Translations under genes and position numbers: made by a program
Part shown: in pieces, positions 3,678 through 36,620 of the stretch
Layout: every line of letters starts with the position of its first letter
How positions within the stretch are numbered: position 1 is the stretch's first letter
NCBI GenBank assembly: GCA_903930515.1
Contig: CAIYYW010000329.1
Coordinates: forward strand, 1-36,620
Length of the DNA: 36,620 bases
Source of the DNA: an uncultured delta proteobacterium
GTDB taxonomy: Bacteria > RBG-13-61-14 > DRUE01
Reading direction: 5' to 3'
Notes under the pieces: model-generated
The model's input: only the letters and a program-made list of their open reading frames with translations
The model's database searches: none
What the model was told of the DNA's origin: nothing

Positions 3678-5282
3678 ATGAAAAGAATCTTTGGCTTTTG
3701 CCTGGCGGGGATCTTTTTCCTGACCGCGAATTCCCTGCAGGCGCAAGGCCTCTGTGATCAAGCCGTTCCGACCGGACAAGGACCGGTCCTGGGCAGGCAA
3801 GATCAAAAATTGCCGGTCTGCGCTTATAAGGGCATTGCTTACGCGCTGCCGCCGGTGGGAGGGTTGCGCTGGAAAGCTCCGGAGTTTCCCGCCCAAAGAA
3901 GCGGGACCTTTCCGGCTTGGGAATTCGGGGCATCCTGCGTTCAGAACGAGGCGTTTTTTTCCGGGGGCAAGAGCAAGTCTTTCAGCGAGGATTGTCTCAC
4001 CCTCAACATTTTCCGGCCGGCCGAACCCGGGACCTATCCGGTGATGTTCTGGATTCACGGAGGGGGGGACACCGAGGGAGCGGGCAGTTATGAGATGTAT
4101 GACGGAACCGGCCTGGTTTCGGCGAAAAAGGTGGTGGTCGTGACCATCAATTACCGGCTGGGTTTTTTCGGGTTCCTGGCTTTGCCCGAGCTGGCCAAAG
4201 AAGACCCGCACCAAAGCACGGGCAATTACGGGGTGCTGGATCAAATTGCCGCCTTAAAATGGGTCCGGGAAAACATCTCCAATTTTGGCGGGAACCCGAA
4301 CCAGATAACTATTTTCGGGGAGTCCGCCGGAGGGGTTTCGGTCTGCAATCTCCTGGTGACACCCCTGGCGGCCGGGCTGTTCCAGCGCGGGATCATTGAG
4401 AGCGGCGGCTGCGACCTGAACCGGTCTTTGGAAGACGGATATGAACAGGGCCGGATCCTGCTCAAAGCCCAGGACTGCGAGGGCCGGGACGCGCTTCAAT
4501 GCCTGCGCGCAAAACCAGCCCAAAGCCTGCTGCTTCCCAGCAAGGAGTTGATCACCGGCGCCGCGGCGCATATTGACCATTATGTTTTTGCCGACCAGCC
4601 AATCGAAATTCTCAAAAAAGGAAATTTCAACCGGGTGCCCATGATCGTCGGGTCCAACCGCGATGAGTTCTCCCTGATCATTTTTCTCGCCCCGGGCGGA
4701 ATTTTTTCCTCGCGCAAACAGGTGGTCAAATTGATGGAAGACCAACTCGGGACCCGGGCGCAGGAGGTGCTCAATATGTATTCCTTTGACGATTACCAAA
4801 GGCCCGCTTTTCTGATGGGAGCGGCCTTCACCGACGGGTTCGGGTCGCGCGCCTTTGCCGCGGCGGAGGCGATGTCGCCGTTCACGCCGGTTTACCTCTA
4901 CCGCTTTGACTGGCGCGAGGAGCGGCTGGGAAAAATCCTGGGAGCTTTTCACGGGACAGAGATCCCCTTTGTGTTCGGAACCCTGGAGGCGAAAAAGGCC
5001 ACCCTCCATCTCCTGCTCAGCCCCAGGGCGGTCGCTTCGGGGAAACCGCTCTCGGAAAAAATGATGAGCTATTGGACTAATTTCGCCAAGACCGGCAACC
5101 CGAACCCAGCCGGGCTTGCGGAATGGCCGGCATATAAAACCGACCGGCGCGACCGGATCTATCTTGATAACCGGATCACGGTGGCGCCGCTCACGGCCAG
5201 GGAAATAGAGCGCTACCAATACTTCGCCGCGATCAGCGTTGAGGAGTTGATGGGTAAAAAGGATCAGGCCGGGGAGAAATAG
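3678..5282 (+). CDS. Secreted type-B carboxylesterase
   Basis: Signal peptide MKRIFGFCLAGIFFLTANSLQAQ; GESAGGVSVCNLL nucleophile elbow; EDCLTLNIFRP; FHGTEIPFVFG. Confidence 0.93.
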   Translation: MKRIFGFCLAGIFFLTANSLQAQGLCDQAVPTGQGPVLGRQDQKLPVCAYKGIAYALPPVGGLRWKAPEFPAQRSGTFPAWEFGASCVQNEAFFSGGKSKSFSEDCLTLNIFRPAEPGTYPVMFWIHGGGDTEGAGSYEMYDGTGLVSAKKVVVVTINYRLGFFGFLALPELAKEDPHQSTGNYGVLDQIAALKWVRENISNFGGNPNQITIFGESAGGVSVCNLLVTPLAAGLFQRGIIESGGCDLNRSLEDGYEQGRILLKAQDCEGRDALQCLRAKPAQSLLLPSKELITGAAAHIDHYVFADQPIEILKKGNFNRVPMIVGSNRDEFSLIIFLAPGGIFSSRKQVVKLMEDQLGTRAQEVLNMYSFDDYQRPAFLMGAAFTDGFGSRAFAAAEAMSPFTPVYLYRFDWREERLGKILGAFHGTEIPFVFGTLEAKKATLHLLLSPRAVASGKPLSEKMMSYWTNFAKTGNPNPAGLAEWPAYKTDRRDRIYLDNRITVAPLTAREIERYQYFAAISVEELMGKKDQAGEK

Positions 5283-5285
5283 AGC

Positions 5286-5340
5286 GGGGGCGGCAAGGGA
5301 AAGGGTTTAAAAGGGTCAAGGGGTTTAAGAGGGGTAGGGG
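5286..5340 (+). other. G-quadruplex-forming-like tract (7 G-runs)
   Basis: ggggg-cggcaa-ggg-aaa-ggg-tttaaaa-ggg-tcaa-gggg-tttaaga-gggg-ta-gggg satisfies G3+N1-7 several times over. Confidence 0.7.
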
Positions 5341-5388
5341 AGAGGAAACGGCCTGGGGGATTATGCAACCTGTAATGCAGCGCGAACC

Positions 5389-5622
5389 TTACTGCTCTTC
5401 CTCTTCCGACTCCTCGGTCTTGCGTTCAATCTGGCGGGCTTTTTGTTCCAGGGCGGAAGCAGCCGGATTCGTGTATCGCTCCGCGGCGGTATCCGCCTGT
5501 TTCTGCATTATCGCATTCCGTTGCGCCTCCTGCTGCTCCATCTGATGGTAATAATAGACGCCGATTTTCCAAAGCCCCAAGCCCAACAGCACCGCCGCCG
5601 CGATCCAGATCAGCTTTTTCAT
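5389..5622 (-). CDS. Small single-TM protein with acidic coiled-coil tail
   Basis: MKKLIWIAAAVLLGLGLWKIGVYYYHQMEQQEAQ...; ATG at 5622 preceded by a promoter-like sequence 9 nt away. Confidence 0.65.
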   Translation of the reverse strand: MKKLIWIAAAVLLGLGLWKIGVYYYHQMEQQEAQRNAIMQKQADTAAERYTNPAASALEQKARQIERKTEESEEEEQ

Positions 5623-5631
5623 TATAAGATG

Positions 5632-5660
5632 AGTATAGACTTTTTTATTCACAAATTCAA
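5632..5660 (-). promoter_or_regulatory. Promoter for small TM protein: TTGAAT-N17-TATACT, 9 nt to ATG
   Basis: minus-strand TTGAAT (5660-5655), TATACT (5637-5632). Confidence 0.6.
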
Positions 5661-5742
5661 GAAATTTGAACCATAGAGGAATCGGGAGTTGGGCGTTAGG
5701 AATTGGGAATTAGTAATTCGGGAAATTCCGAACCCCGAATGA

Positions 5743-5758
5743 GCCACGGCGCCGTGGC
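5743..5758. repeat. Perfect 16-bp palindrome GCCACGGCGCCGTGGC
   Basis: Self-reverse-complementary; preceded by ATTCGGG...CCCGAAT inverted repeat (about 5715-5740). Confidence 0.7.
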
Positions 5759-5815
5759 AGGAGCGCCCGCCGGCGTCCGTCTGAGCTTAGGTGCGGACCG
5801 GCTGCTTCCGCATGT

Positions 5816-6208
5816 CTATTTATGATTTGGAGACAGGCGGAGTTTCATTCGGATTGTCTCGCGGACCCGGGCAGCGGTTTTACGGGCCTGTCGGGCTTGT
5901 TCCGGCGAGGCCTGGTCGCCGGGGTATCGGAAGGAGACCGCATAAGCGGTAAGGCTTTCCATCTCATTCTTGATCAAGAGCAGTTCGGGGAGTTCGGGAA
6001 GGATTTGGTTCAACAGCGCGATCAGGTCATGGGTCCTGGGGATGCCCCGGCCTTGTTCTTCCAGATAGGCTTTCAGATACTTTTCCGCGCATTGCTGGGA
6101 ATGGAAGCAGACGGAGTTGTAAAGCGGCTTCGCGCCCCTGCTCAACCGATGGGCCGCCTGCCAATCTTCCTCGGCCTTATCAACCCCTTCCTTAACCGGA
6201 GGCTTCAT
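5816..6208 (-). CDS. HEPN domain protein (partner of MNT nucleotidyltransferase)
   Basis: NSVCFHSQQCAEKYLKAYLEEQG...RTHDLIALLNQI typical HEPN core; overlaps the upstream MNT gene. Confidence 0.88.
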   Translation of the reverse strand: MKPPVKEGVDKAEEDWQAAHRLSRGAKPLYNSVCFHSQQCAEKYLKAYLEEQGRGIPRTHDLIALLNQILPELPELLLIKNEMESLTAYAVSFRYPGDQASPEQARQARKTAARVRETIRMKLRLSPNHK

Positions 6209-6509
6209 AAACGACTTTGCCTTTTTCCATGATTTGGCGGATGAAGGAATCTCCCCATTTCAGGCGCTGCTTGATCTGGGCGGGGGTGCGGACAATGATG
6301 TCTATGGGGTAGGTATGCTCAATGGCTTGGCGGACCGCGGCCGCGGCGTCCAGGGTGTTCTTCCGCGTTTTCATTATGACCATCAAATCAATATCGCTGT
6401 CCGGCTGGGCCTTGCCATAGGCGTGAGAGCCGAACAGGATGATCTTTTCCGGCTTGAAGGAGCGGGTGATCTGGGAGACCAGATTATTTATTTCGCGGTT
6501 CCTGCTCAT
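6192..6509 (-). CDS. MNT-type minimal nucleotidyltransferase (antitoxin-type)
   Basis: IILFGSHAYGKAQPDSDIDLMVIM = GSx10DxD nucleotidyltransferase motif. Confidence 0.9.
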   Translation of the reverse strand: MSRNREINNLVSQITRSFKPEKIILFGSHAYGKAQPDSDIDLMVIMKTRKNTLDAAAAVRQAIEHTYPIDIIVRTPAQIKQRLKWGDSFIRQIMEKGKVVYEASG

Positions 6510-6517
6510 CTGCTTCC

Positions 6518-6546
6518 AAAATAGCCCGGGCCTCGGGAAAAATCAA
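6518..6546 (-). promoter_or_regulatory. Promoter for MNT-HEPN operon: TTGATT-N17-TATTTT, 8 nt to ATG
   Basis: minus-strand TTGATT (6546-6541), TATTTT (6523-6518). Confidence 0.5.
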
Positions 6547-6565
6547 GCCCTTGCTCAGAAAGGTT

Positions 6566-6700
6566 CAAATTATCTTTTCCATATTTTTCATCGCCTGCCT
6601 GAGCACGGGTGCGGTCTGGGTTCCGGCCAGGTCATTCTTTGTCGGGCAGTATCGGATAAGGATGATCAATCGCATGCCGGACTTCTGCTGCGGCATCCAG
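6566..6700 (-). pseudogene. Decayed paralogous fragment of an MNT nucleotidyltransferase
   Basis: minus frame LDAAAEVRHAIDHPYPI vs intact MNT LDAAAAVRQAIEHTYPI (13/17 aa, 38/51 nt, mismatches mainly third position), then stops and frameshift. Confidence 0.45.
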
Positions 6701-6834
6701 TTATGATCGCGGGGAATTGGCATCTTTGGCGGAAAAGGTTTATGATGAAAAAATCAATTGGGCGATACTTGGATTGGGGCTGGATTAACTTAGAGCCTGC
6801 GGTTGAGGGCATTCTGGAAAAGGAGAACAAGCCC

Positions 6835-9240
6835 ATGACAAAAGATTTCCGCAAAATTTGGATCGGGGTTGGCGTATTCATTCTGGGGTTGGCGATCTTG
6901 AGCGGATGTTTGCAGAAAGAGCGTCGCGCCAGACAAAACGACCCAAATCCGGGAGCAGATTTTGATTCAACCGCCTCCTTTGCCGCCGGCTCGCTCAAGC
7001 TGACCGGTAATGTGTTCAAGGGGCCGGTTTCCCGCGCCAGGGTGAAGTTCTATCTCTTGAAAGGGAATGGCGCGCGGGGAGAACCATTGGGCGCCAAGAC
7101 CACGGACGGCAACGGCCATTTTTCCATCAAGTTTTCTCCCAAGCCGGTCAAGCCGATTCTGGTGGAATCCTGGGGCGGGGCATATCAGGATGAGGTGAGC
7201 GGAAACACGGTGGCCCTGAACCGGACCGATCTAATGACCGCGATCGTTCCGGTCGGGACCAAATCCATCGCCATTACTCCGCTCACGCATCTGGCATCCA
7301 CCCGGGCCCGGGCCTTGGCAGCCTCCGGCGCCCCACTCACGATTGCGATCATCTCTTCTTATATCGGGGTGGCCCAGCAATATAACCTTCCCGCCTTTTT
7401 GGGAATCGTCCCGGTCGCCCCGAACAACCAATCCGTTATGAACACCGCGGATTTTTACCAGCGAAACTACGGCTTGATCCTGGCCGGCCTTTCCTATCTC
7501 GCGCAATTACTGGGGGTCCGAACCTACGATCTGATCTCGGGACTGGCCGAAGATTTATCCGACGGCATCCTGGACGGAATGAAAGGAACCACCCCCCTCT
7601 ACCTCCCGCTCATCGGCGGCGCCGGTGAAACCATCCGCCTGCCGACTTCGGCCGGGACTTCCCAGTTGCATAATGCCATTGACGCTTTTCTCGCCTCGGC
7701 CAATAACAAGACCAACATCACCCTGTTGGACATTTCCAATAATTACCGGCCCGTGGGAGTGAGTATGAACAGCGTTTTATTCATCACCAAAACCACCCTC
7801 CCGGTCTGGACTTCCGGTCAATTCGGGTCCACCGCCATCACCGGCCAGGGCGGGACTTTGCCATATCACTGCTCGCTCAAGGCCGGCTCAGCCTTGCCCG
7901 CGGGATTTGCCATCTCGGACGGTTGCGTTCTTTCCGGCACCGCGGAAATTTTGGCAGCCGGAATCAAGATGAAAATCAGTCCTCCCTTCACAGTCGTAAT
8001 GACCGATTCCGGGGTTTCCCCGGCCAAGCCGGATCCGAGCCGGGTTTTGGCCGACCAGCCGTTCATCGGGGAAAACGAAAATGAATTCAGGATCATCATT
8101 ATACCGGGCCTGCCCAACCTGGAGCCGATGACCGGCTCTTGCCGGAGGGGAATCCCCTGCTCCACCGAAGTGGCTACTGCCACGGGCGGAATTCAGCCTT
8201 ATTACTTTGTCCAAGACACCCTGCGCAATGGCCGGACTCCATTTGGAATCGGCGTTTGGACCTCGCTTAATTATTTAAATGCCCTGGCAAAAGGAACCAC
8301 CAAGGAGACCGGCACTTTCCCTTTCGGGGTCTGCGTGGTGGACCTGGCTGGCTGGAAAGATTGCAAACAAACCACCGTAATCGTTGACGACTGCGCCGGC
8401 ACGGGCAAGTCCTGTGATAAAAATCCCTGCTGTAAGGGAACTTGCGTGCCCAATCCGAAATGCGATTGGGCTGATCCTGATCCAGACAATGTCTGTTATG
8501 GTCCCTGCGAGGGAGACCGTCCGGTTGATTGCGGCAATGGTTGCTGTTCGCTGGAACATTCGGTATGCAAAGATCACTGCAAATGCGGGGTGGCCGAAGT
8601 AAACCCTTTGCAGATCGTTCCCGGTCAGGGCGCTCTTTCCGCCTGCATTCAACCCTTGAATGGGCCGCCCTATCAATATATTGTCTGTGAAGGCACTTTG
8701 TTGGCCATCGGCGGAGCGCCTTTATCCGGATATACCTGGACCGTTTCCAATCTTTCAACTTTCCCGCCCGGAACCACGGTATTGCCTTTAACCGGGGTTT
8801 TCACCGGAACCGGCTCGGCCGTGGTTGAAGGGAATTATACCTTTAATATGACGGTTTCCGACGAAGGGAGCCATATTGCGACCGGGGACTTTCATCTGGC
8901 AGTGATTACCGCTGACATTTGCGGCTGTCCGGTTTTCCAGCAGTCCTACGATCTTAGCCTGGGAACCGCTAATGCCGGGATGCCCTTTGGGTCGTCGCTG
9001 GCCGTTGCCGGGGGAACCCCGCCTTATAAGTGGTATGAAGATACCACCTATTCCGAGCGGGCAAATTTTGTCTCCTCCGGATTGGCGATTGATCTGGATC
9101 GAGGGGTGGTGCGCGGAAGCATCATGGAAACGGTTCGGGGAGAAACCATCAAGTTCAAGGTGATTGTCAAAGACAGCACCAACGCCACCGCGTTTTGCAC
9201 TTTTGAAAATTGTATTTATTCCATTGATGTCTCGCCCTGA
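6835..9240 (+). CDS. Large lipoprotein with putative Ig-like (He_PIG-type) repeats and a Cys-rich segment
   Basis: Lipobox LAILSGC after MTKDFRKIWIGVGVFILG; GG.PPY.W repeats; CCKGTCVPNPKC...CGNGCCSLEHSVCKDHCKCG; SD aaggag before ATG 6835. Confidence 0.8.
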   Translation: MTKDFRKIWIGVGVFILGLAILSGCLQKERRARQNDPNPGADFDSTASFAAGSLKLTGNVFKGPVSRARVKFYLLKGNGARGEPLGAKTTDGNGHFSIKFSPKPVKPILVESWGGAYQDEVSGNTVALNRTDLMTAIVPVGTKSIAITPLTHLASTRARALAASGAPLTIAIISSYIGVAQQYNLPAFLGIVPVAPNNQSVMNTADFYQRNYGLILAGLSYLAQLLGVRTYDLISGLAEDLSDGILDGMKGTTPLYLPLIGGAGETIRLPTSAGTSQLHNAIDAFLASANNKTNITLLDISNNYRPVGVSMNSVLFITKTTLPVWTSGQFGSTAITGQGGTLPYHCSLKAGSALPAGFAISDGCVLSGTAEILAAGIKMKISPPFTVVMTDSGVSPAKPDPSRVLADQPFIGENENEFRIIIIPGLPNLEPMTGSCRRGIPCSTEVATATGGIQPYYFVQDTLRNGRTPFGIGVWTSLNYLNALAKGTTKETGTFPFGVCVVDLAGWKDCKQTTVIVDDCAGTGKSCDKNPCCKGTCVPNPKCDWADPDPDNVCYGPCEGDRPVDCGNGCCSLEHSVCKDHCKCGVAEVNPLQIVPGQGALSACIQPLNGPPYQYIVCEGTLLAIGGAPLSGYTWTVSNLSTFPPGTTVLPLTGVFTGTGSAVVEGNYTFNMTVSDEGSHIATGDFHLAVITADICGCPVFQQSYDLSLGTANAGMPFGSSLAVAGGTPPYKWYEDTTYSERANFVSSGLAIDLDRGVVRGSIMETVRGETIKFKVIVKDSTNATAFCTFENCIYSIDVSP

Positions 9241-31559: not shown

Positions 31560-32825
31560 TTATTTCCCGTCCAGGAATTCCGGAATCTTCTCCAGCCGGG
31601 TCAGATCCGAGTATTTCTCCCGCTCCCGGATCACATGGAAATCTCTTCCCGAAACCAGCACCTCGGCCGGGAGCGGCTGGCCGTTGTAATTGCTCGCCAT
31701 AACGAACCCATACGCGCCCGCGCTCATCACCGCCAGCAACTCCCCCCGCTTAAGCTCCGGAAACACCCGGTCCCGGGCAAGGAAATCAGCGCTCTCGCAG
31801 ATCGGCCCGACCAGGTCCGCGAGCGATCCCGGCTGATCCGGCTTTTGCGTCACCGGCCAAACCTCGTGATACGATCCGTAAAGCGCCGGCCGGATCAAAT
31901 CGTTCATCCCGCCGTCCGCGATGATGAACCGCTTCAAGCTGTTCTCCTTCAAAAAAGACACCTGCAACAGCAACACCCCGGCGTTCCCCGCGATCACCCT
32001 TCCCGGCTCCAAAATCAGCTTGCAGCCGGAAGCTTTCGCCATCTCGGAAATCTCCGCGGCGTATTCCCCGGGCAGGGGCGGATGCTCGCTGTTATAGGTG
32101 ATGCCCAATCCTCCGCCCAAGTCCAGGTATTTGATCTCCAATCCCATACCCCGCAACTCCCCCACCAGTTTCACCAGGAAGGAAAGCGCCTCCACGATCG
32201 GCTCCATCCGAAGAAGCTGGCTACCGATATGGCAGTCCACCCCGCACAATTCCAAATGCGGATATTTCTTCCAGTCCCGGAACAAGGACTTGGCCTGGCC
32301 CAGTTCAATCCCGAACTTGTTGACCTTCAGCCCGGTGGAAATATGGGCGTGGGTCTGAGGGTCTATGTCCGGGTTGATCCGGAGCGCCACCGGGGTTTTT
32401 TTCCCCAGCCGACCCGCCACCTGGTTCAACAGCTCAAGCTCGCCCTCGCTCTCCACATTGAAAAACAGAATCCCTTTGGACAAGGCGTATTCCAACTCCG
32501 GTTCGGTTTTAGACACCCCGCTGTAAACCACCTTTTGAAAATCCCCGCCCGCCTGCTCCACCCGGTAAAGCTCCCCTCCGCTCACGATGTCAAACCCGCT
32601 CCCCAGCCGCGAAAATAGGCGCAGGATCGCCAGGTTGGATAAAGCCTTGACCGAAAAACAGGTGAGGTGGGGGATGTCCGCGAAGGAATGGTCAAACGCC
32701 TGGTAATGACGGGTCAGAGTAGCCGAGCTGTAAATATACGCCGGAGTACCCGTTTCCTCCGCAATCCGCCGGAGCGGAACCTCCTCGCAATACAACTCGC
32801 CGTGCTGATAGTTGAAATGATGCAT
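31560..32825 (-). CDS. lysA: Diaminopimelate decarboxylase
   Basis: CFSVKALSNLAILRLFSRLGSGFDIVSGGELYR; LDLGGGLGITY; ICESADFLARDR; SD GGAG before ATG 32825 (track start 32843 is TTG). Confidence 0.97.
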   Translation of the reverse strand: MHHFNYQHGELYCEEVPLRRIAEETGTPAYIYSSATLTRHYQAFDHSFADIPHLTCFSVKALSNLAILRLFSRLGSGFDIVSGGELYRVEQAGGDFQKVVYSGVSKTEPELEYALSKGILFFNVESEGELELLNQVAGRLGKKTPVALRINPDIDPQTHAHISTGLKVNKFGIELGQAKSLFRDWKKYPHLELCGVDCHIGSQLLRMEPIVEALSFLVKLVGELRGMGLEIKYLDLGGGLGITYNSEHPPLPGEYAAEISEMAKASGCKLILEPGRVIAGNAGVLLLQVSFLKENSLKRFIIADGGMNDLIRPALYGSYHEVWPVTQKPDQPGSLADLVGPICESADFLARDRVFPELKRGELLAVMSAGAYGFVMASNYNGQPLPAEVLVSGRDFHVIREREKYSDLTRLEKIPEFLDGK

Positions 32826-32841
32826 CTCTGCTCCAAAATTC

Positions 32842-32868
32842 AAAAACCACCCGAGCGGATGGTTTTTT
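32842..32868 (-). other. Terminator-like hairpin in the lysA 5' leader
   Basis: minus strand AAAACCATCC-GCTC-GGGTGGTTTTT within about 25 nt of the predicted TSS; also terminator-like on the plus strand (…GGATGGTTTTTTT). Confidence 0.55.
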
Positions 32869-32869
32869 T

Positions 32870-32898
32870 ATTATATCCCCGGCTTCCCCGGCTTGCAA
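32870..32898 (-). promoter_or_regulatory. Promoter for lysA-dapF: TTGCAA-N17-TATAAT
   Basis: minus-strand TTGCAA (32898-32893), TATAAT (32875-32870). Confidence 0.7.
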
Positions 32899-33038
32899 CT
32901 TGATCGCAGATTCTTCCCCGGCTTGCCCGCGCCTTCCCTTTCCGGTCCAACCACTTGCCCCTGCATTGCTGGATCGCTATAACAAAATTAGATAAGTATG
33001 CTGAATTGAGCTAAGTTTAAAAAATAGACCAAAACCCA

Positions 33039-33425
<387 letters not shown>

Positions 33426-34670
33426 TTATTCAGCTTCCCCGCCATACGCCGACTCGCTATGCTGGCTCAAATCCAATCCCCTATCCTCGTCCTCCGCCTC
33501 CACCCGCATCCCGATCAGCTTGTCCACCACCCGGTAAAAAATCAGGCTCATCACCAGGCCGAATACCACGGTCACAACCACGGCCAGGAGCTGGATCAGG
33601 AATTGATGGGGGTTCCCGAAGAACAGGCCGTCGTTGCCCGCGGAATTGATCGCCTTCTGAGCGAACAAACCCGCGGACAGCGTTCCCACAATTCCGCCGA
33701 TGCAATGCACCCCGAACACATCCAGCGCATCATCATAGCTGAACCAGGCCTTGACCTTGGTCACCGCGAAATAACAAAAGAACCCCGCGCCGATCCCGAT
33801 CGCGATGGCGGAAAGCGGTCCGACAAACCCGCAGGCCGGGGTGATCGTGGCCAGCCCGGCGATGGCGCCGGAGGCGCATCCCAACATTGTGGGTTTTCCC
33901 CGCAGCGTCCACTCCAGCAAGGCCCAGGTCAGGCCCGCGGCGGCTGCCGCGGTGTTGGTGGTGACAAAGGCGTTCACCGCAAGCCCGTTGGCCGCGAGCG
34001 CGGAGGCCGCGTTGAACCCAAACCATCCGAACCAGAGCAGGCCGGTCCCGAGCACGGTGAACGGTAGATTATGCGGCGGGATCGGGATCTCGCCGTAGCC
34101 TTTCCGTTTCCCGATCATAATCGCCAGCGCGAGCGCGGAAATGCCGGCGCTGATGTGAACCACGGTTCCGCCGGCAAAATCCAAAACGCCCAGGTTCCGG
34201 AGCCACCCGCCCGCTCCCCAGACCCAGTGCGCCAGCGGATCATAGACCAGCGCCGACCAGAGCAGGGCGAAGATGAAAAAGGACGAGAACTTGATCCGCT
34301 CCGCGAACGCTCCGATGAAGAGGGCAGGGGTGATCACCGCGAACATCGCCTGGAAGATCATAAAGGCCTGGTGCGGGATGGTCGCCGCGTAATCCGGGTT
34401 GGGCTGCATCCCCACCCCGGAAAGGCCGATCCATTTCAGGCTCCCGATTAAATGACCCAGGTCCGGGCCGAACGCGATAGAATACCCGAACAAAACCCAC
34501 TGCACCCCGATCAGGCACATCAGAATGAAGCACTGCATCAGAATGCTAAGCACATTCTTCCGCCGAACCATCCCCCCGTAAAAGAGCGCCAGGCCCGGGG
34601 TCATCAGCAAGACCAGCGCCGAGCCGACCAGAACGAAAGCCGTGTCTCCAGAATCAATCATTTCAATCAC
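33426..34670 (-). CDS. amtB: Ammonium transporter
   Basis: TPGLALFYGGMVRRKNVLSILMQ; DFAGGTVVHISAGISALA; DDALDVFGVHCIGGIVGTL. Confidence 0.96.
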   Translation of the reverse strand: MIEMIDSGDTAFVLVGSALVLLMTPGLALFYGGMVRRKNVLSILMQCFILMCLIGVQWVLFGYSIAFGPDLGHLIGSLKWIGLSGVGMQPNPDYAATIPHQAFMIFQAMFAVITPALFIGAFAERIKFSSFFIFALLWSALVYDPLAHWVWGAGGWLRNLGVLDFAGGTVVHISAGISALALAIMIGKRKGYGEIPIPPHNLPFTVLGTGLLWFGWFGFNAASALAANGLAVNAFVTTNTAAAAAGLTWALLEWTLRGKPTMLGCASGAIAGLATITPACGFVGPLSAIAIGIGAGFFCYFAVTKVKAWFSYDDALDVFGVHCIGGIVGTLSAGLFAQKAINSAGNDGLFFGNPHQFLIQLLAVVVTVVFGLVMSLIFYRVVDKLIGMRVEAEDEDRGLDLSQHSESAYGGEAE

Positions 34671-34735
34671 CTCCCGGATACTTTTGTAATATGAATTACA
34701 AACATTTTACTCTCCTGGTTTCGGGAAATAAGGTC

Positions 34736-34752
34736 AGCATATTCCGTGCCAA
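34736..34752 (-). promoter_or_regulatory. Sigma-54 (-24/-12) promoter for amtB-glnK: TTGGCACGGAATATGCT
   Basis: GG-N10-GC with perfect TTGGCACG -24 element; predicted TSS near 34725, SD gggaggtg before ATG 34670. Confidence 0.82.
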
Positions 34753-34829
34753 TAGTTTTCCCCGTTGCCAACCCCCGGAAATGCGAGCCTCTTGCGCTGG
34801 AAAACCCTTTACCTTTTGCCCGGAGCGGA

Positions 34830-34847
34830 TCGCAAAACCGGTTGCGA
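34830..34847. promoter_or_regulatory. Candidate activator dyad TCGCAA-N6-TTGCGA
   Basis: Perfect 6-bp inverted repeat between the two divergent sigma-54 promoters. Confidence 0.45.
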
Positions 34848-34951
34848 GGAGAAGAAATTTAGCCCGCCAAAATTGTCAATAATGCCAAAAAATACCAATA
34901 TTGTCAAAATAGCCGCAGATTCGGATATTGGCGCGGATAGTTTTTTTTAAA

Positions 34952-34965
34952 CCCGCAAATGCGGG
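34952..34965. repeat. Inverted repeat CCCGCA-AA-TGCGGG
   Basis: Perfect 6-bp arms in the amtB/hdrBC intergenic region. Confidence 0.5.
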
Positions 34966-35042
34966 GAATAAGCGAATAAAATCAAGATGTTAAAGGCTTG
35001 ACGCATCCGCTGGCCCGCGTTGCAAAAAGCCTTAAGACCATT

Positions 35043-35058
35043 GGGCATAGCTTTTGCA
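35043..35058 (+). promoter_or_regulatory. Sigma-54 (-24/-12) promoter for hdrBC-glt: GGGCATAGCTTTTGCA
   Basis: GG (35044-35045)-N10-GC (35056-35057); consensus TGGCAC-N5-TTGCA; predicted TSS about 35069. Confidence 0.75.
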
Positions 35059-35072
35059 CATAAGGGAAAGCG

Positions 35073-35156
35073 ATGCTGAAGACAATAAACGAAATATGCG
35101 CGCGGGCAATTGAGGCTATTTTAAGCTTCGGTTATTCAGCCGTTGGGAGGCTCTGA
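35073..35156 (+). CDS. 27-codon uORF/small peptide MLKTINEICARAIEAILSFGYSAVGRL
   Basis: Begins about 4 nt from the predicted sigma-54 TSS; stop 2 nt before the hdrBC ATG and contains its SD (GGGAGG). Confidence 0.4.
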   Translation: MLKTINEICARAIEAILSFGYSAVGRL

Positions 35157-35158
35157 AA

Positions 35159-36499
35159 ATGCCCTATTTAATTTTCTGGGGCTGTCATATCCCGGCTCGG
35201 TTTCCGCATTTGGAGCTTTCAATGAAAAAGGTTCTGGACGCGCTCGGGATACTTTATGCGGAGAGCAACCGGTTCACCTGCTGTCCGGAAAATTTCGGGA
35301 TCAAGGCGATGGGTCATTACCCCTGGCTTTTGACCGCGGGAAGGAATCTGGCGATTGCGGAAACGATGGGGATGGATCTGGTCAGCGCGTGCAACGGTTG
35401 TTATTCCACCTTGAAGAGCGCCCAGGCGGAGCTGCGAGGAGACGCGATGGCGCGGCAGAGCCTGAACCAATCCCTCCAAGGGATCGGCATGGAATATCAG
35501 GGCACGCTCAAGATCAGTCATTTCCTTGAGATGCTTTTTGACGATCTCAGTCCCGCGGGCATCAAGCGCAGGATTCGGAGGCCTCTGCAGGGAATTAAAA
35601 TCGCGGCTCATCCCGGGTGTCATCTGCTCAGGCCATCCACTCATCTCCGGTTTGACGAGCCGTTTATCGCGTCCAAGTTTGATCAACTGATCGCGGCAAC
35701 CTGCGCGGAGCCGCTGGAATATCAGGGCAAATTTCTCTGCTGTGGAGGCTCGTTCAAATATTCCGGCGAGGATGAGCTTTCCCTTCAGGCGGTTCGGGTC
35801 AAATTGAAAGAAATTCAGGAGTTGGGAGCGGACGCCTTGGTCACCGGCTGTCCCACCTGTTACAGCCAGTTTGACTCGGGTCAGATGATGCTCAACCGGG
35901 CCGGAGAAAAATTTGAGATTCCCGTGCTTTATTACACGGAACTGCTCGGGCTTGCGCTCGGGCTGTCTGCGGAAGAGCTTGCCCTGGACCGGCATCGGGT
36001 TCCGGTTGACAGCCTGCTCAACCGGCTGGCGCAGAAAGAAACGGAGAGGTTCTCGGCTAAAGGCATAATCAATCTGGAGATGATGCGGCAGTGCGTAGCC
36101 TGCTCCGCGTGCAAAGACGACTGTCCCGCGGTCAAGATCAGCAATGAGGGTTTCCAGCCCCATCGGCTTTTTGAAAAAATACTGGCGGGCGATTTGGCGG
36201 GGGTTCTGGCGTCAAGGGAAATCTGGAATTGCCTGGACTGCCACACCTGCGAGGAGTTGTGCGGACAGGCGATCGGGATGAACCGCTTCTTCGGTCAGCT
36301 TAGAGAATTGGCGCTGGCAAAAGGCCTGGCGCCGGAATCGGTCCAAGGCTCGGTGGACGCCTTTTGCAAGACCGGGATGGTGACCAAGCCCGCTCAAGTG
36401 ATGCGGAAGAAGCTGGGATTGGGAGAGCTCGCGCCCGCGGGGGATGATGAGTTGAAAAAGGTTCTCGCCGGGATGCACCGGTCAAAGGAGCCGGAATAA
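35159..36499 (+). CDS. Heterodisulfide-reductase-like HdrB-HdrC fusion (two CCG-type domains + two 4Fe-4S motifs)
   Basis: GCHIPARFP...TCCPENFG...CNGCYSTLK; HPGCHLLRPS...FLCCGGSFKYSG...TGCPTCYSQFD; CVACSACKDDCP and CLDCHTCEELC. Confidence 0.88.
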   Translation: MPYLIFWGCHIPARFPHLELSMKKVLDALGILYAESNRFTCCPENFGIKAMGHYPWLLTAGRNLAIAETMGMDLVSACNGCYSTLKSAQAELRGDAMARQSLNQSLQGIGMEYQGTLKISHFLEMLFDDLSPAGIKRRIRRPLQGIKIAAHPGCHLLRPSTHLRFDEPFIASKFDQLIAATCAEPLEYQGKFLCCGGSFKYSGEDELSLQAVRVKLKEIQELGADALVTGCPTCYSQFDSGQMMLNRAGEKFEIPVLYYTELLGLALGLSAEELALDRHRVPVDSLLNRLAQKETERFSAKGIINLEMMRQCVACSACKDDCPAVKISNEGFQPHRLFEKILAGDLAGVLASREIWNCLDCHTCEELCGQAIGMNRFFGQLRELALAKGLAPESVQGSVDAFCKTGMVTKPAQVMRKKLGLGELAPAGDDELKKVLAGMHRSKEPE

Positions 36500-36501
36500 A
36501 A

Positions 36502-36620
36502 ATGCAAGTCCGGGGTGTCTATGACTGGGAAATAAGAAACCCGTGCGGGTGCGGGATCACCGCGCTTTTAAGCGCGAAGCAAAAGCGCTCTGGCGGGGAG
36601 CTGGTGGTTCGGTCTCTGAA
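36502..36620 (+). CDS. 5' fragment of a class-II glutamine amidotransferase (glutamate synthase GltB1-like), truncated by window end
   Basis: MQVRGVYDWEIRNPCGCGITALLSAKQKRSGGELVVRSL: C-G-I-x-A/G start typical of Ntn-type GATase near an N-terminal Cys. Confidence 0.55.
   Translation, partial: MQVRGVYDWEIRNPCGCGITALLSAKQKRSGGELVVRSL

Follow-up and report, generated by a model that had tools for sequence, protein, structure and literature searches.

Two divergent sigma54-type promoter sites between amtB-glnK and an hdrBC-glutamate synthase operon in an uncultured delta proteobacterium

The gap of 497 bp between amtB and hdrBC contains two divergent sigma54 sites, which raises the question of whether ammonium uptake and a glutamate synthase operon that begins with a heterodisulfide reductase-like gene are switched on together when nitrogen is short. 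The window is the whole of contig C329 (36,620 nucleotides) and belongs to a draft genome of 3.65 Mb in 401 contigs. Comparisons were made with a congener (G001; hdrBC record CAIUDS010000550.1, isolate AlinenSedimentsD2_bin-1424), a genome of the same order (G002) and one related at domain level only (G042). It is likely that the two promoters, opened by an activator of the nitrogen-shortage response, drive amtB-glnK on one side and hdrBC-glt-glnA on the other. The features concerned are as follows.

33039..33374, minus strand: glnK, PII protein (PF00543, E 1.6e-34)
33426..34661, minus strand: amtB, ammonium transporter (PF00909, E 5.9e-130; TIGR00836 above cut-off)
34736..34752, minus strand: predicted sigma54 -24/-12 promoter of amtB-glnK, TTGGCACGGAATATGCT (top PSSM match of the window, 17.4 bits)
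34867..34914, no strand assigned: candidate activator (enhancer) region between the promoters, direct repeat D1 with TTGTCA at 34873 and 34901
35043..35058, plus strand: predicted sigma54 -24/-12 promoter of hdrBC-gltB1-gltB2-gltB3-glnA, GGGCATAGCTTTTGCA (PSSM rank 2, 14.0 bits; kept in G001)
35159..36499, plus strand: hdrBC fusion with two CCG domains and two 4Fe-4S sites (PF02754 twice, Fer4_17)
36502..36620, plus strand: gltB1, truncated at the contig end; glutamine amidotransferase subunit of a split glutamate synthase (tblastn with G001 gltB1)

Both sites have the sequences and positions given in a first-pass annotation of this DNA, and the GG-N10-GC spacing is exact at each. They meet the sigma54 pattern (GG and GC 10 apart, in a TGGCAC / TTGC context), the hdrBC site being the weaker. 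The -24 box of the amtB site, TTGGCACG, is perfect, as the annotation had claimed, and its -12 box is one base off (ATGCT vs TTGCT). At the hdrBC site the -24 box, GGGCAT, is weaker and the -12 box, TTGCA, is perfect. In the PSSM scan that had been proposed as a check, run over both strands of the whole window, these were the best two matches, followed by 13.6 and 13.4 bits elsewhere; the matrix (ceiling 20.6 bits) is a self-made approximation from the published consensus, so its scores are relative only. Against a simulated dinucleotide background, the chance of an equally good best match on the correct strand within the 250 nt upstream is 1.6e-4 for amtB and 2.9e-3 for hdrBC.

The predicted transcription starts lie at approximately 34725 on the minus strand for amtB and 35069 on the plus strand for hdrBC. 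The resulting leaders, of about 64 and 90 nt respectively, would be of ordinary length. No Rfam elements were found in positions 32800-35300. Translation of amtB more likely begins at ATG 34661, after GGGAGGTGATTGAA, than at GTG 34670; the AmtB of G001 begins at the corresponding MINSGDTAF. The amtB leader also holds a 12-codon ORF, MFVIHITKVSGR (window 34667-34705, minus strand), which has its own Shine-Dalgarno sequence and a stop that overlaps the amtB ribosome site; it may be due to chance. Another short ORF, downstream of the hdrBC promoter and before the gene itself, was set aside, since its Shine-Dalgarno sequence, read by eye, would fall upstream of the predicted transcription start.

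The rpoN gene, on which any such reading depends, is located on C34 (PF04552, E 6.0e-58). The genome also encodes eight full PF00158 enhancer-binding protein (EBP) domains, genes that the annotation had likewise named as a check. Receiver domains occur in at least five of the EBPs, and one, on C223, carries two GAF domains. The genome-wide check of sites was made by pattern searches and on individual contigs. Exact TGGCACRNNNNNTGCW occurs only five times in 3.65 Mb, while the strict pattern TGGCAYNNNNNTTGCW is found six times in this genome and nine times in G001, compared with one occurrence of the reversed pattern in each. Several strict-pattern matches in this genome are inside genes, so that single matches are no proof; exact matches within genes were discounted as promoters, among them the one in nuoF on C245.

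Other sigma54 sites occur elsewhere in the two congeners. Sites of 18.1 bits precede an ECF-sigma-like gene in both (L148, C312 222-237, minus strand, here; L166, C754 2318-2333, minus strand, in G001), a possible sigma54-to-ECF cascade. In this genome a sigma54 consensus of 16.1 bits (L149, C364 3604-3619, minus strand) is found 24 nt before a type IV pilin-like gene. Both congeners also have a candidate sigma54-driven small RNA (L150, C384 62-164, minus strand, here; L162, C34 1338-1448, plus strand, in G001), divergent from a dihydrolipoamide-dehydrogenase-like gene and with a conserved -24/-12 site. After the site comes a stretch of ~75 nt with a strong stem (fold z ~ -6.5 in both) and a C-rich anti-Shine-Dalgarno-like loop. 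The candidate is 85% identical between the two, was found in none of the others among 115 genomes and matches no Rfam family.

The hdrBC site, taken alone, is moderate, and this counts against the main reading. A rival view is that sigma54 acts at the amtB site alone; the match before hdrBC would then be fortuitous or decayed, with a housekeeping promoter driving that gene. The score of 14.0 bits and the weak -24 box favour this, as does the 13.2 bits reached by actinobacterial control loci. The controls were 61 hdrBC loci with an archaeal or actinobacterial label, groups in which sigma54 is not expected; 13.2 bits is their maximum, and that none has a site of at least 14 bits speaks for the main reading. 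Upstream of most other bacterial hdrBC-glt operons a good sigma54 site was looked for and not found, which again favours the rival; the operon is not under sigma54 control in general. In G001, however, TGGCACAGCTATTGCA is located 74 nt before hdrBC and scores 18.2 bits. With the two regions anchored on the site, 13/16 core positions are identical, whereas the flanks agree at the chance level (16/60 and 14/60), which points to selection on the hdrBC site itself. The GG-N10-GC positions, whose loss from the orthologous region would have told against the first-pass annotation, are conserved there. The hdrBC gene of G042, a genome with rpoN, also has a site, TGGCATAGAGATTGCA (~40 nt upstream, 16.5 bits), and at a separate locus TGGCACATTGTTTGCA is found 36 nt before amtB (19.9 bits). 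With both genomes considered, a sigma54 promoter at amtB only is unlikely.

The proposal of one regulatory island holds for this genome, with its two divergent sites in one gap, but the arrangement is not kept elsewhere. In G001, amtB-glnK is away from hdrBC and behind a different gene on a contig that ends upstream, and no sigma54 site was found in the short gap before amtB. So far the back-to-back order is seen in this genome only, and G001 offers no orthologous intergenic region to set beside the amtB site. This lack of a conserved divergent order speaks against the main reading, as do the intragenic consensus matches and a sigma70-like match in the gap. G001 retains hdrBC with gltB1, preceded by NuoF-like, ferredoxin-like and GltB2-like genes, after which a terminator-like hairpin was read by eye. 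These neighbours are the same genes as in a NuoE-NuoF-ferredoxin-GltB2-like cluster of the present genome (L147, C245 2027-6729, minus strand), which is perhaps a second glutamate-synthase-like redox enzyme.

The operon itself is spread over two contigs. The gltB1 gene resumes at residue 49 on C356. After it come genes for two further glutamate synthase subunits, one of Fer4-FMN and one of GXGXG type, and then glnA. Since gltB1 is broken across the contigs, we infer that C329 and C356 join, and the whole operon is read as hdrBC-gltB1-gltB2-gltB3-glnA. Its earlier description as an hdrBC-glutamate synthase operon was right, with a glutamine synthetase to be added. The position of glnA downstream of gltB1-B2-B3 strengthens the nitrogen reading, and genes for ammonium uptake and assimilation are present in amtB, glnK, gltB1-B2-B3 and glnA. 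This gene content supports the suggestion that HdrBC and the amidotransferase belong with ammonium uptake in a regulon that would respond to nitrogen starvation.

Alternatively, both could be sigma54 promoters that answer a signal other than nitrogen, such as redox state sensed through a two-component EBP. HdrBC is a redox protein, the EBPs with receiver domains are two-component response regulators whose signals are not known, and no EBP gene is adjacent to the gap. Such a signal fits poorly with the genes served: amtB, glnK, a split glutamate synthase and glnA. In Desulfovibrio vulgaris, DVU1823-1821 are among the members of a regulon of nitrogen metabolism and transport attributed to one EBP (PMC4641369), and within the same order as the present genome a GAF-type EBP adjoins glnK-amtB. 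A signal unrelated to nitrogen is therefore considered improbable.

The latter EBP gene, in G002, is directly upstream of glnK-amtB, beyond which is glnA with a 16.2-bit site. Its best relatives are the C223 protein of this genome (48%) and the C119 protein of G001 (47%). Its location and this kinship make the GAF-type regulator on C223 the first guess for the activator, and possibly it is the activator. A binding site was sought 80-200 nt upstream, where TTGTCA repeats were seen. Three other regions upstream of sigma54 sites in the two congeners together carry four copies of TTGTCA, where 0.35 would be expected (P 3e-4); as the repeat was picked post hoc and looks like a -35 element, it serves as no more than a lead. 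The 14-mer AAATTGTCAATAAT of the gap also occurs upstream of hdrBC in G042 (P 0.004); its exact occurrence in G001 is inside a gene and was set aside as chance. Counts of NtrC-like TGCAC were at chance level, with no enrichment, and NifA-like TGT-N10-ACA was not significant.

The resemblance of TTGTCA to a -35 element also bears on whether housekeeping sigma70 promoters drive both units, through TTGACA-N17-CATTAT (34907-34879, minus strand) together with plus-strand matches that contain TTGTCA. The gap has three sigma70-like matches against 1.0 +/- 0.9 in shuffles. Transcripts from these would have long leaders, and the conserved GG-N10-GC would be left unexplained; sigma70 promoters may also work alongside sigma54. 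That sigma70 accounts for both units is doubtful at best. That both sigma54 matches arose by chance is very improbable, given their very small joint chance, their conservation across species and the presence of rpoN, even with exact consensus matches also found within genes of this genome.

Under the favoured reading of two sigma54 promoters under nitrogen control, RNA polymerase with sigma54 would be held closed at each -24/-12 site. An activator responsive to nitrogen shortage, possibly the GAF-type protein, would bind about midway along the gap, opening both promoters. One transcript would yield AmtB and GlnK for ammonium uptake and PII control. The other would yield HdrBC, the three split glutamate synthase parts and glutamine synthetase for the assimilation of ammonia.

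The enterobacterial NtrC/sigma54 nitrogen regulon (glnALG, glnK-amtB) has sigma54 promoters before its amtB/glnK and glnA genes. Unlike that regulon, the present locus has the order amtB-glnK and a split glutamate synthase with HdrBC, no NtrB/NtrC pair was identified, and NtrC-type sites are not enriched. A sigma54 regulon of nitrogen metabolism and transport has been reconstructed for the D. vulgaris EBP DVU1949, including DVU1231-1233, DVU1258, DVU3392 and DVU1823-1821 (PMC4641369). It resembles the present case in having one activator for several sigma54 operons of nitrogen metabolism and transport, the activator and its site here being putative. It differs in that here amtB and the glutamate synthase operon diverge from one gap, and the operon begins with hdrBC. 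Ammonium transporter/PII genes, together with those of glutamine synthetase and glutamate synthase, presumably lie in the operons of the DVU1949 regulon. For Desulfovibrio, such a sigma54 nitrogen regulon has already been predicted (PMC4641369); less familiar is an HdrBC fusion whose gene accompanies those of a split glutamate synthase.

HdrBC resembles the HdrABC heterodisulfide reductase in its HdrB-like CCG domains and HdrC-like 4Fe-4S sites, with every cysteine present. Both CCG cysteine motifs (9, 41, 42, 78, 81 and 154, 194, 195, 231, 234) and both 4Fe-4S motifs (312-322 and 358-368) are complete. Unlike HdrABC, HdrB and HdrC are fused, no hdrA was found among the operon genes, and the protein falls below every NCBIfam equivalog cut-off (TIGR03288, 255 vs 345 bits; TIGR03290, 50 vs 160). 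The strongest HdrA match in the genome is on C366, in a separate hdrC-hdrB-hdrA cluster. The HdrA-like gene beside hdrC and hdrB there (L112, ~5150-7573, plus strand) has an in-frame TGA and possibly encodes a selenocysteine HdrA.

Putative F420-dependent split (archaeal-type) glutamate synthases have been described in ANME archaea (PMC9012536). The present operon shares with the split archaeal-type enzymes the separate subunits and an extra redox protein in the cluster; in contrast to the F420-linked ANME variants (PMC9012536), that protein is an HdrBC fusion. Among the best 80 hdrBC relatives in a public genome collection, glt genes accompany hdrBC in 78, with all three in 64 and glnA in 22; the 78 come from archaea, Coriobacteriia, Peptococcaceae and other groups. 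In the literature searched, no account of HdrBC alongside a split glutamate synthase was found. HdrBC probably serves the glutamate synthase in iron-sulfur electron transfer, as one of its subunits or as a feeder to it. More tentatively, HdrBC-GltB1-GltB2-GltB3 could be an anaerobic glutamate synthase that is widespread and has HdrBC as a true subunit. HdrBC would then take the place of the NADPH subunit GltD and supply electrons from a thiol/disulfide or ferredoxin pool, and in some bacteria the complex would be sigma54-induced under nitrogen limitation.

The promoters are of a known, mostly expected kind, and it is the link between HdrBC and glutamate synthase that merits biochemical study. 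The locus places HdrBC in a likely ammonia-assimilation regulon of an uncultured lineage, and the near-constant company of glt genes among its best relatives allows a concrete guess as to what donates electrons to split glutamate synthases.
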